Source: an uncultured Candidatus Poseidoniales archaeon
GTDB taxonomy: Archaea > Thermoplasmatota > Poseidoniia > Poseidoniales > Thalassarchaeaceae
Reading direction: 5' to 3'
NCBI GenBank assembly: GCA_902593945.1
Contig: CACJKA010000009.1
Span: 1 to 46,484 of the forward strand
Length of the DNA stretch: 46,484 bases
Part shown: in pieces, positions 13,965-18,833 of the stretch
How positions within the stretch are numbered: the stretch's first letter is position 1
How the letters are laid out: every line of letters begins with the position of its first letter
Translations under genes and position numbers: made by a program
The notes under the pieces: model-generated
Databases searched by the model: none
What the model saw: only the letters and a program-made list of their open reading frames with translations
Told to the model about the DNA's origin: nothing

Positions 13965-15188
13965 ATGATTAGTGATTCAGAAGGTACTGATAGACGAATT
14001 CCTGTAACTGTGTTAACCGGATTTTTAGGTTCTGGGAAAACGACTTTATTGAACCATATTCTTGCTAGTACAGAACATAAAATGAAATTTGCGGTTATTG
14101 AGAATGAATTTGGTGATATTGGTATTGACGAAAATATTCTAGTAGAAAGTTCCGAAGAAAGTGTCATTGAGGTAATGAACGGATGTATATGCTGCACGGT
14201 TAGAGGTGACCTTACAGAAGTTCTCGATCGAATGTATGATCGAATAAAAGATTTTGACGGCGTACTTATTGAAACAACCGGTTTAGCAGATCCTGCCCCT
14301 GTCGCACAAACATTTTTTGTTGACGATAGAGTTGTAGAGAGATATAAATTAGATGGCATTATTACAGTTGTTGATGCCAAGCACATTGTTCAACATGTTG
14401 ATGAAGAAAAACCGGAAGGAGTTGAGAACGAGTCTGTTGAACAACTTGCGTTTGCCGATAAAATAATGCTGAATAAAATCGATCTTGTTTCCGAAGAAGA
14501 ATTACAAGAGGTTGAAAAGAAGATTAAATCAATAAATAGTTTCGCACCAATTTATCGGACAGAGAATAGTTTAATTGATCCAAAGGAATTAATAGGCATT
14601 GGATCATTTGATTTGCAAAGAACATTGGAAATGGATCCAGAGTTCCTTGATACAGATTCTGAACATGAACATGATCAACGTGTCACTTCTACAAGTTCAA
14701 AATTTGAAGGTGAATTAAATGTTAATAAATTAGAAAAGTGGATTGGAGATCTAATGAGGACAAAATCACAAGATCTATTTCGATATAAAGGCGTATTAGC
14801 AGTAAAAGGAACGGATGAAAAATATGTTTTCCAGGGAGTACATATGCTATTCGCAGGTAATTTTAGTAAAGATATCGGACTCTGGAAGGACGGTGAAAAA
14901 CGTGAATGTCGATTTGTATTTATTGGCAGAGACCTTGATCATGAAGCTCTTCAGAAGGGACTGATGGAATGTAGAGCAGAAGAACTGCGTTTCAATGTTG
15001 GAGATACTATTTATGCAAACTTAGGGCAAAGTGAATTTACAGAAGGTAAGATCTTGAAAATCTGGGATCAGGGTAATCCATATCGAGTTGAAATTCAGAA
15101 TGAAGAAAAAACAAATGTTTGGGTTCCTATCGACAACGACGATTATGTAAGGTCAGGAAAAATGAGCTGGTTTGGCCGTTCTCTTTGA
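13965..15188 (+). CDS. COG0523 (CobW/ZNG1-like) metallochaperone GTPase
   Basis: A 407-residue G3E GTPase. The P-loop is GFLGSGKTT (about residues 17-25), the COG0523 metal site is GCICC (about 71-75), and NKID is the guanine motif (about 171-174). A short His-bearing stretch (EHEHDQR, about 230) precedes the CobW C-terminal domain. Proteins of this family load zinc or cobalt into client enzymes. An additional C-terminal segment (about 340-407) with FNVGDTIYANLG...VWVPIDNDDYVR resembles an SH3-like extension I associate with algal COG0523 proteins. The next gene encodes a [2Fe-2S]/thiol protein 15 bases downstream, and a metallothionein-like peptide converges on both, supporting a metal-handling locus. 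Confidence 0.9.
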   Translation: MISDSEGTDRRIPVTVLTGFLGSGKTTLLNHILASTEHKMKFAVIENEFGDIGIDENILVESSEESVIEVMNGCICCTVRGDLTEVLDRMYDRIKDFDGVLIETTGLADPAPVAQTFFVDDRVVERYKLDGIITVVDAKHIVQHVDEEKPEGVENESVEQLAFADKIMLNKIDLVSEEELQEVEKKIKSINSFAPIYRTENSLIDPKELIGIGSFDLQRTLEMDPEFLDTDSEHEHDQRVTSTSSKFEGELNVNKLEKWIGDLMRTKSQDLFRYKGVLAVKGTDEKYVFQGVHMLFAGNFSKDIGLWKDGEKRECRFVFIGRDLDHEALQKGLMECRAEELRFNVGDTIYANLGQSEFTEGKILKIWDQGNPYRVEIQNEEKTNVWVPIDNDDYVRSGKMSWFGRSL

Positions 15189-15203: not shown

Positions 15204-15554
15204 ATGTCAAAAGACGTAATTGTTTGTAATGGATGCTGTTGTGGCAACACGGGCAAAGGTCATCCTGAAGTGCCAATTAAATTCTTAACTGAAGAATGGA
15301 ATAAATATGGTCTAAATGAACATGTTAAACTTAGAATTTCTAAATGCCTTGGGCCTTGTAGTATGCATAATGTTTCTATCTTACGTACTGAAGAAAGTCA
15401 GCAATGGTTAGGTAATCTTAGTCAAAAAGAGCATTATGAATCAATTGTAGAATGGGCACGTAATGTGGCTAAAAATAAAAATAATTATGACATCCCAAAT
15501 TTTTTATTATCTCATAAATTTGAGCGTTTTGAAGAAGTTGTCATTAGAGATTAA
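15204..15554 (+). CDS. Thioredoxin-like [2Fe-2S]/metal-binding protein
   Basis: A 116-residue protein with an N-terminal CNGCCCG cluster (Cys at about 8, 11, 12, 13) and a second pair in SKCLGPC (about 48 and 52). This spacing resembles thioredoxin-like [2Fe-2S] ferredoxins and related small proteins found beside cobW/COG0523 genes. It probably carries an iron-sulphur cluster or binds a metal received from the neighbouring GTPase. The gene lies 15 bases behind the COG0523 gene, so co-transcription is very likely. Its stop codon is one base away from the stop codon of the convergent metallothionein-like gene. Confidence 0.8.
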   Translation: MSKDVIVCNGCCCGNTGKGHPEVPIKFLTEEWNKYGLNEHVKLRISKCLGPCSMHNVSILRTEESQQWLGNLSQKEHYESIVEWARNVAKNKNNYDIPNFLLSHKFERFEEVVIRD

Positions 15555-15555
15555 T

Positions 15556-15621
15556 CTAACAGCAACCATCACATTTACAATTAGCACCGCAAGGTGAACA
15601 GTCGCAACAATCACAATCCAT
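15556..15621 (-). CDS. Metallothionein-like 21-residue Cys-rich microprotein
   Basis: A 21-codon frame with ATG at 15621-15619 and TAG at 15558-15556. Nine of 21 residues are Cys (positions 3, 5, 6, 8, 11, 15, 17, 20, 21), arranged as C-x-C-C-x-C, C-x3-C-x-C and a terminal CC, interspersed with Asp, Ser, Gly, Asn and Lys. That is the composition of a metallothionein, which chelates zinc, copper or cadmium through thiolate clusters. No other in-frame start exists before an upstream stop. A TATA-like element lies about 32 bases ahead of the ATG, consistent with an almost leaderless transcript. It converges on the COG0523/[2Fe-2S] pair. It is far too short for ordinary gene callers. Chance occurrence of nine Cys codons in 21 is improbable, but expression is unproven. 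Confidence 0.72.
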   Translation of the reverse strand: MDCDCCDCSPCGANCKCDGCC

Positions 15622-15650
15622 GGATGTAAGATAAAAATGAGGTACTTAAT

Positions 15651-15656
15651 TTTATA
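15651..15656 (-). promoter_or_regulatory. TATA-like box for the metallothionein-like gene
   Basis: On the minus strand the sequence TATAAA, within GATATAAAATT, is centred about 32 bases upstream of the ATG at 15621. An archaeal TATA box sits near -26, so transcription would start only a few bases before the ATG. Confidence 0.5.
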
Positions 15657-15774
15657 TCATAATTTATAGATAATATTAATTTTTTATTAGTTTTTTATTA
15701 ATTCCGATTCCATAGTATAATGCCTGCAAACTTAACGGCTCAATATTTATCATCATCATTTTACTAGGTTTATT

Positions 15775-17193
15775 GTGAATAACCGTTCGGATATGATCCA
15801 AGTCTTATCGCCATCGTTTAGATGGTTTTTCACTAATCCGTTTTTTCTTTCCATAGAACTGATTTTTATCTATTTGATTATTAATATTGAATTTTCTTAT
15901 CCAAATGAATTATTTACTGGTAGTATTTTATTGCTGATATTTGCTTTGATATATTATTTACTCGATTTTTCTCCCATCACCCTCCATCAGACATTTCTAA
16001 TGATTTTAGCCAACTTTATGCAAATATTATTATCATATTTTTCTCTTGATTATTCCCCTATTTTAATACCGTCGTTACATATATTTTCTCAAATAATTCT
16101 AGGGTTTTCATATTATCTTGGCTCAAAAATCATTGTCCAAGATGATATTATTCTTATCAATTCAAAATCGATAAACTGTAGTGATGTATCTGTAGAATCT
16201 AGAGTTAGAACAATAGGGGGTCTTTTCGGTTTTGGCGATATAATTCTCCATTATAATAATAAAAAATTTATGTTATCTGGTATTGTAAATCCAATAGAAA
16301 AACGTCGCATATTAATAGATAATTTCAATTTTTTAGCATATAAACAGAAAGCAAATTGGAGTGGAACGATAATATTATTTCTTGTTTCTGTGATTATTCT
16401 TATTTCACCAATTTTCATTCTTTTCACGGTTTTTTACATATACTTTTCAGAATTATTTGTTGTATTGAGATTTTTTTACAGTATTATTTTAACTTTAATA
16501 ATTTCAATATTATTGCTAAATATTCGTATTCCTAGAGTTAGAATTAATCCGGCATTAGACATTATGGATTTGGAATTAGTAGATACTGGTATGTGGACTC
16601 AGATTTTCCAACTTAATGAAACAACTGTAGTTAAACAATTATTCAGATGTGGTTGGGGTCATAATAATTACAATGATCACAAGGCACCCATAATAGGGAA
16701 AAAGATGTGTGGCAGATGGAATCCCATTGCTTTAGTGATAATGCATAATCTAATGCTTATTTATCAGATGATTGGAGTTCATAGAAGAAAAATATTTGAG
16801 CACCATATTGAGGCTATTCCAAGAACTTATACGGTACATGGTAGATATTTCAGATATCTTCAAGAACATGTCCCTAAACCTCTTAATTTAGAAAATATGC
16901 CTGAAGATATCAAGGATCAATTCATATTATTAAATGAAGAATTAGAAAAATCTGGTTTATTTATTGATGATATTCATGCAGGCAATGTCAGAATAAATTC
17001 CAATGGAAAAATAAGACTGGTCGATGGTGAATTATACACCGATGGAGAAATTTTAATCAAGAATTTTTTGGTTAATGGAATTGATGATAGATTAAATGGC
17101 ATGGAGACAGTACTAGGTTGTGAAAGAATAATCCGTTGGGTAGATCACCGTTTATCTGTTGACGATGTAGTAAAACAAAAGGTGAAAGTATGA
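15775..17193 (+). CDS. Membrane-anchored kinase-like protein coupled to the OleC-like gene
   Basis: A 472-residue protein that I cannot assign to a named family. The N-terminal half has membrane helices (about residues 20-105 and 195-248) flanking a small soluble segment. The C-terminal 200 residues look like a divergent protein-kinase/APH fold: TTVVKQLF (candidate ATP-binding Lys, about 283), a catalytic-loop-like GLFIDDIHAGNVRI (about 398-411) and RLVDGELYTDGE (metal-binding Asp). The order resembles YrbL or lipopolysaccharide-kinase-like proteins. GTG 15775 is about 29 bases behind an AATATTTAT element, compatible with leaderless expression. Its stop overlaps the next start in ATGA, so it is translationally coupled to the acyl-AMP ligase and likely works with it. 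Confidence 0.75.
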   Translation: MNNRSDMIQVLSPSFRWFFTNPFFLSIELIFIYLIINIEFSYPNELFTGSILLLIFALIYYLLDFSPITLHQTFLMILANFMQILLSYFSLDYSPILIPSLHIFSQIILGFSYYLGSKIIVQDDIILINSKSINCSDVSVESRVRTIGGLFGFGDIILHYNNKKFMLSGIVNPIEKRRILIDNFNFLAYKQKANWSGTIILFLVSVIILISPIFILFTVFYIYFSELFVVLRFFYSIILTLIISILLLNIRIPRVRINPALDIMDLELVDTGMWTQIFQLNETTVVKQLFRCGWGHNNYNDHKAPIIGKKMCGRWNPIALVIMHNLMLIYQMIGVHRRKIFEHHIEAIPRTYTVHGRYFRYLQEHVPKPLNLENMPEDIKDQFILLNEELEKSGLFIDDIHAGNVRINSNGKIRLVDGELYTDGEILIKNFLVNGIDDRLNGMETVLGCERIIRWVDHRLSVDDVVKQKVKV

Positions 17194-18833
17194 ATTTTAT
17201 TTCACTTCTTTCAGAGAAAACTAGATCTCATCCTGACAAGATTGCATTTGCTTTCCGTCAGAATAATTCCAAATACTATGATCAGATTTCGTTTAAAGAA
17301 TTAGATCATAAAAGTAATAGAGCTGCAATTTACCTAAAAAATAACGGATTTAAGAGAGGTATGAAAACTTTAGTGATGGTTAGGCCTAGCATTGATTTTA
17401 TTATTTTGATATATGGTATGTTTAAGGTCGGAATTATACCATTATTTCCACCGAATCTTGATCTTAAGCAGAGGAGTGAAAGAAAAAAATTGAGGTCAAT
17501 CCTAGGTCGTGCTAAAATTGAGGGGGTAATAGGCAGTCGTAAAATTCTCTCTCTTACTTTTCTTCTAAGATTACGAAGTTTATCTCAGAAGATTTTATCC
17601 TTGAATGGAATAAAAACTTACTATTCTAACTCGGATAATAATTCTGAATATATTATCGATTCTGATATTGATTGGTTAGATAAACCTGTATTTGTAAAAT
17701 ATACTACTGGTTCTACCGGCCCATCTAAAGGCGTAATTTACAATCATGCTATGCTCCATTCACACATAAAAATTCTAGAATCCGAGGGAATCAATAGTGA
17801 TGACATATTTTTCGGCCGTTCAGGCACTTTAATCGTCCATCCATTAATTGGAATGACATCAATACTTCATACAAACAAACCAAAACAGACTACTGGTGGA
17901 GAGATAGTTGAAGCAATAAATAGGTGGTCAATTAGTGCATGTTTCTTATCTCCTCCATCAGCAATTAATCTATCTAATTATCTTGAATCAATTGATACTA
18001 AAGGTATTGATCAACCAAAGATTCCTTCTCTCGAAAGATTGTACGTCGGCGGTGAATCTGTTTCTTCAGAAGTTGTTAGAAATATAGAATTCCATTTATC
18101 ATCTAATCGTCCAAAAGATGGTGGTTTTCATCTTGTTTACGGTGCTACTGAAGGCTTCCCTCTTTGTCAAAATCAAACTAATAATATCATTCAAACTTAT
18201 TCTGAAACTAAATTAGGTAAGGGTATTTGTTTAGGAAAAGCAGTTGGAGGAGTTAGAATTAGAATTCTAACATTTAGAAACTTACTTGGAGATTTTGATA
18301 ATTCTTCTGCTGAAGACGTATCTAGTAACAGTATAGGGGAAATATCTGTTCGCGGTCCTGTTGTTTATACTAGATTAGTTGCTGATGACGAGAAAGCATT
18401 TGGTGGTCCTCTAACTTGGGCTTTAGATCAAAATGATGGCAGTATTTGGCATAGGACAGGAGATCTTGGATACACTGATAACGAAAATAGGATTTGGCTA
18501 GTTGGAAGGAAAAAACATTGTGTGAAATTATCTAATGACATAACATTGTACCCTAAACAGGTCGAGCCAATTTTAGATTCAATGTTCGGAATTCGCACAG
18601 CTTTAGTCAATGGTCCGAATAATATGCAGGGTTCTATTATAGTTGAGAATCATGGACAGAATTGGAACCTACTTCATAAAAAATTAGTTCAATCAATCCC
18701 TACATTATGCAAATTACTGGGGAAGAATATTGATTTTTCATTCTCACTATATGAGGGCGAGTTCCCTGTTGATTCAGGTCATGAGGCAAAAATAAGGCGT
18801 GAGGAATTAAGTCATTGGTTATGCGATAAATGA
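17190..18833 (+). CDS. OleC-like acyl-AMP ligase / beta-lactone synthetase homologue
   Basis: A 547-residue ANL-superfamily enzyme. The P-loop is YTTGSTGPSKGV (about residues 171-182). The adenylation motifs VYGATEG and IWHRTGDLGYTD follow, and GRKKHCVKL lies in the hinge. The N-terminal RGMKTLVMVRPSIDFIILIYG and the HLVYGATEGFPL / GKGICLGKAVGGVRIRI segments resemble OleC, which converts beta-hydroxy acids into beta-lactones in long-chain olefin synthesis, more than ordinary acyl-CoA ligases. OleA, OleB and OleD are not in the window, so the product is open: it may activate a fatty acid for a lipid or a lactone. The four-base overlap with the kinase-like gene implies stoichiometric expression. 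Confidence 0.82.
   Translation: MNFISLLSEKTRSHPDKIAFAFRQNNSKYYDQISFKELDHKSNRAAIYLKNNGFKRGMKTLVMVRPSIDFIILIYGMFKVGIIPLFPPNLDLKQRSERKKLRSILGRAKIEGVIGSRKILSLTFLLRLRSLSQKILSLNGIKTYYSNSDNNSEYIIDSDIDWLDKPVFVKYTTGSTGPSKGVIYNHAMLHSHIKILESEGINSDDIFFGRSGTLIVHPLIGMTSILHTNKPKQTTGGEIVEAINRWSISACFLSPPSAINLSNYLESIDTKGIDQPKIPSLERLYVGGESVSSEVVRNIEFHLSSNRPKDGGFHLVYGATEGFPLCQNQTNNIIQTYSETKLGKGICLGKAVGGVRIRILTFRNLLGDFDNSSAEDVSSNSIGEISVRGPVVYTRLVADDEKAFGGPLTWALDQNDGSIWHRTGDLGYTDNENRIWLVGRKKHCVKLSNDITLYPKQVEPILDSMFGIRTALVNGPNNMQGSIIVENHGQNWNLLHKKLVQSIPTLCKLLGKNIDFSFSLYEGEFPVDSGHEAKIRREELSHWLCDK

Follow-up and report, generated by a model that had tools for sequence, protein, structure and literature searches.

A 66-base gene in the genome of an uncultured Candidatus Poseidoniales archaeon encodes a peptide of 21 residues, nine of them cysteine, which is subject to strong purifying selection, conserved family-wide and patchily distributed as an accessory gene. 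The product is probably a stand-alone minimal metallothionein, which would form a single thiolate cluster, be expressed from its own promoter and buffer or sequester metal. We give an even chance to a broader proposal, that it belongs to a previously undescribed family of genetically encoded metallothioneins, which would be the shortest known and the first in archaea. On this view promoter and gene would make up a unit of ~140 bp that abundant archaea of the surface ocean acquire and lose, controlled by a dedicated metal-responsive regulator acting on an inverted repeat that overlaps the TATA box. The gene and its local neighbours lie in the window, by which we mean the whole stretch of 46,484 nucleotides that was analysed, as follows:

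15556..15621, minus strand: gene for the 21-residue, nine-Cys peptide (stop codon TAG at 15556-15558, ATG at 15619-15621)
15622..15669, minus strand: promoter region of the peptide gene, with the TATA-like box TATAAAATT at about 15656-15648
15204..15554, plus strand: gene for a DUF1636-like ([2Fe-2S] thioredoxin-like) protein (Pfam PF07845, E 4.7e-4, below the gathering cut-off)
13965..15188, plus strand: gene for a COG0523/CobW-type G3E GTPase with a CxCC motif (PF02492, E 5.3e-59; PF07683, E 2.4e-20)

Translation of the minus strand from 15621 to 15556 gives MDCDCCDCSPCGANCKCDGCC followed by a stop, with cysteine at residues 3, 5, 6, 8, 11, 15, 17, 20 and 21 in the spacing CxCCxCx2Cx3CxCx2CC; the peptide is not encoded on the plus strand of the same interval. 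An earlier note, made from the DNA alone, had described nine cysteines in 21 residues and a single possible ATG, and both observations hold, the frame containing no other ATG, GTG or TTG back to the previous stop (*VPHFYLTSM, where the asterisk is the stop). The same is true of the described gene order: the peptide gene converges on the DUF1636-like gene across a gap of 1 bp, and farther beyond lies the COG0523 GTPase, a putative metal chaperone, which scores below the cut-offs of the NCBIfam ZigA and CobW models. Elsewhere in the window, positions 15775-17193 encode a protein of 472 aa and membrane type, kinase-like in its C-terminal part, with a weak likeness to RfaY (NCBIfam E 0.011) and no Pfam match, adjoining an acyl-CoA synthetase-like ORF at 17190-18833.

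Gene callers usually apply a length limit of 90 bases, below which this gene falls. When 98 relatives were searched with the 21-residue query, 14 full-length copies emerged, the window's own and 13 new ones. A 60-base IUPAC pattern located 45 full-length copies in 44 of the 319 genomes of the order; these represent both families and 10 of its 22 genera. The reversed pattern had no match in the same 319 genomes. When one genome per species was scanned (84,980 GTDB species), 44 of 48 matches belonged to marine Group II (Poseidoniales), several single-cell genomes (AG- and AH- records) among them; the remaining four, which include the bacterial ones, are low-complexity Cys repeats and were rejected, so that among the species scanned the peptide is limited to marine Group II. 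Frames of 21 residues commonly arise by chance, but chance is excluded here by the contrast with the reversed pattern and by the concentration of matches in one archaeal order, and conservation over two families and ten genera under purifying selection is equally contrary to it. The prediction that the frame encodes a genuine metallothionein-like peptide, conserved but too small to be called as a gene by the usual methods, is thereby upheld; a lack of conservation in related genomes, which the earlier note had named as evidence against it, is not what the genomes show.

Outside the order, a profile search across the whole phylum turned up nothing that could convincingly be counted as a member, and its two weak matches, in genomes G447 (MPCKCCTFNPCGIFF...) and G408, were judged to be chance. 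A 22-residue frame in the former (locus L172, C10:95934-95972; MPCKCCTFNPCGIFFDALKYR), from another lineage of the same class, recalls the N-terminal half of the peptide and is probably also fortuitous. Carriage by viruses or plasmids is unsupported: IMG/VR holds no exact match to the pattern, and phage and plasmid collections gave no match to the 21-residue query, which makes a weak test. No Pfam or NCBIfam family, known metallothionein profiles included, matches the peptide at E up to 10, and no PDB chain does so. Since the genomes are mostly incomplete assemblies, absence from any one of them is weak evidence; presence in 14% of genomes, set against a typical completeness near 78%, nevertheless indicates a truly patchy gene.

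All nine cysteines, Gly12 and the length of 21 residues are invariant in 41 of 41 distinct gene sequences, and the Cys codons are kept in 369 of 369 cases while TGT and TGC alternate. Mean pairwise divergence across these sequences is 0.18, 0.12 and 0.50 at codon positions 1, 2 and 3 respectively, and the synonymous-site bias that had been suggested as a check is present (pN/pS 0.16). Start codons occupy the same place throughout (38 ATG and 3 GTG). Damaged copies were seen in G045, without its N-terminus, and in G126, where one base is deleted after the start. A regulatory leader peptide, or a non-coding RNA or DNA element, is disfavoured as an explanation and in our estimation very improbable: promoter and short frame do travel together, and some copies stand upstream of a same-strand gene, but variation piles up at third codon positions, the downstream genes vary in identity and strand (often the opposite strand, as in the window) and there is no Rfam match.

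In composition the peptide has the attributes by which metallothioneins are recognized, that is, low mass with a high Cys content in C-C and C-x-C motifs (9 of 21 residues) and few or no aromatics and His; F, W, Y and H occur in none of 37 distinct peptides. Net charge is negative in nearly all of them, owing to Asp and Glu.

The earlier note had placed the peptide in a metal-chaperone locus, and this does not extend beyond a few genomes. DUF1636 and COG0523 genes adjoin the peptide in four of 45 loci (the window, G005, G256 and G267), and the chaperone-operon reading was rejected as a general one because the conserved neighbourhood is confined to these; on the same grounds we regard the peptide gene as autonomous, outside any chaperone operon. 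Clustering of 283 neighbouring genes yielded 190 clusters. Outside the four loci the peptide sits next to unrelated genes, such as those for MscS, SelO, SIR2, an SSF symporter, a GST-like protein, NAD kinase, aldo-keto reductase, TPI and peroxidase, and at most loci no metal gene adjoins it. The precursor of a modified peptide of ribosomal origin, either antimicrobial or metallophore, might be expected to be tiny, Cys-rich, patchy and present at many genomic sites with its own promoter, as this one is; yet no modifying enzyme or exporter recurs among the neighbours, and all 21 residues are conserved with no division into leader and core, which leaves this reading improbable.

The G257 locus shares 94% identity with that of G005 over 279 bp. 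It retains an intact peptide gene although DUF1636 is cut down to its last ~45 bp, which is consistent with selection on the peptide itself. The G257 contig may be a mis-binned relative, the genome being listed with 6% contamination. In an empty-site comparison of the MscS locus, the genes upstream of MscS proved too unstable in their order to place the ends of an insertion. On the G094 contig (L105), gene-family clusters C43 and C44 flank the peptide locus on both sides, constituting a local duplication. G037 carries two peptide loci (L073 and L091, on C22 and C10) with identical promoter and gene and shared upstream genes, which may reflect variation between strains, a genuine duplication or a duplicate introduced in assembly.

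Most relatives possess a dedicated promoter. At most loci it consists of a box TATTAATT (-45 to -38), ATACCT and a TATA box TAAATAATAAT (-27 to -17), at a fixed distance from the start codon, which is the spacing expected of a leaderless archaeal transcript. Together, the upstream box and the TATA box make up an inverted repeat overlapping the latter, an arrangement suggesting that a dimeric and probably metal-responsive regulator is in control. Its left and right arms covary, with 6.09 of 8 positions matching in the observed pairs against 5.48 in shuffled ones (p 0.0002, 32 de-duplicated promoters), a value to which shared ancestry can contribute. The motif has 21 matches in the 319 genomes; 20 precede the peptide gene and, for the remaining one, the contig ends at the place expected for the gene, so a regulon search across these genomes found it on no other gene. 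The promoters of the window copy and of its close relatives in G005 and G257 have diverged and lack the inverted repeat, and the window genome contains no such motif at up to two mismatches. Of the TATA-like box at leaderless spacing reported for the window, a near-leaderless promoter stands, with the qualification that TATAAAATT is slightly farther out (about -35 to -27) than the corresponding box of most relatives.

A link to the chaperone system does survive in weaker form, not as fixed locus membership but as co-occurrence of DUF1636 with the peptide at genome level. Across the 148 genomes of the family, DUF1636 is found in 16 of 31 peptide-positive genomes against 18 of 117 others (odds ratio 5.9, Fisher p 7e-5), and the association persists under stratification by genus (z 3.3, p 0.0009); for the whole order the figures are 19 of 44 and 46 of 275. 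It could stem from ancestry shared below genus level or from common accessory gene content. DUF1636, too, has a patchy distribution, occurring in 65 of 319 genomes of the order, and in the family it shows a strong anti-correlation with ZIP transporters (7 of 34 genomes with DUF1636, compared with 70 of 114 without it; genus-stratified p 0.0009), which suggests alternative zinc strategies. ZIP transporters are also less frequent where the peptide is present (10 of 31 genomes, compared with 67 of 117 without it), with a stratified p of 0.04 that is not robust to multiple testing, while P-type ATPases are not associated with the peptide among the family genomes, by presence or by the stronger second class.

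We propose that the peptide gene has a leaderless or near-leaderless promoter of its own, from which it would be transcribed on demand, and that, in most relatives, a dimeric and probably metal-responsive regulator would act through the TATA-overlapping inverted repeat. In the slightly acidic product, free of aromatics and His, the nine invariant cysteines would form one thiolate cluster binding about three divalent ions, such as Zn(II), or a small Cu(I) cluster, and metal so bound would be buffered or sequestered in the cytosol. Zinc is favoured as the metal because of the statistical association with DUF1636 and COG0523 and, weakly, the absence of ZIP importers, and copper(I) is possible; part of COG0523, a family of zinc and cobalt chaperones, is linked to zinc homeostasis (PMC2770081). 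A dedicated copper(I) thionein serving copper detoxification, in place of a zinc buffer, is a less likely alternative that we entertain tentatively. The nearest known proteins by size are the copper metallothioneins of Neurospora crassa and Agaricus bisporus, which have 26 residues and 7 Cys and were once reported as the shortest (PMC4755600), and an all-Cys composition without His suits Cu(I) clusters; the association with zinc and cobalt chaperones, and the lack of one with P-type ATPases, tell against copper. Less probable again is a miniature Fe-S or redox peptide, holding an Fe-S cluster or cycling between thiol and disulfide, perhaps in the service of the DUF1636 protein with which it co-occurs and which is related to thioredoxin-like [2Fe-2S] ferredoxins (PMC4520260). 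Nine fixed cysteines, with C-C and C-x-C spacing, are more than any Fe-S cluster would need, the C-x2-C-x2-C arrangement is missing, and 41 of 45 copies are located away from DUF1636.

If the peptide is indeed a minimal metallothionein, it would be the first on record in archaea within the open-access literature searched, in which we found nothing on point. The archaea of marine Group II rank among the most abundant members of the plankton, and the peptide may serve as a marker of how oceanic archaea handle scarce zinc or toxic copper. A complete gene of this size with a conserved promoter also indicates that whole protein families can sit below the length limits of gene callers, and the peptide offers a minimal natural scaffold for asking how small a protein can be and still build a metal-thiolate cluster.

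Among known systems, the beta-domain of mammalian metallothionein has nine Cys and binds three divalent ions in an M3S9 cluster; like the peptide it combines nine Cys in a cluster-sized chain with an absence of His and aromatics, but it is about 30 residues long, is part of a two-domain protein and has another spacing. The SmtA/BmtA family and mycobacterial MymT are likewise prokaryotic and Cys-rich and act as cytosolic buffers or sequestrants of metal, whereas their length is about 50-56 residues. SmtA/BmtA-type metallothioneins use His ligands and a zinc-finger fold, and the peptide, with 21 residues and no His, was rejected as a member of this type. The COG0523 GTPases with a DUF1636 partner adjoin the peptide in the window and three further loci and are tied to it genome-wide through DUF1636, but these proteins are not homologous to it and most copies of the peptide are elsewhere. 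Closest in size are the fungal family 8 copper metallothioneins, which are also single, very short, Cys-rich chains and are described as metal-binding Cu-thionein; the peptide differs from them in being archaeal, in having nine Cys in a spacing of its own and no Pfam or NCBIfam match, and, at 21 residues against 26, it is shorter.
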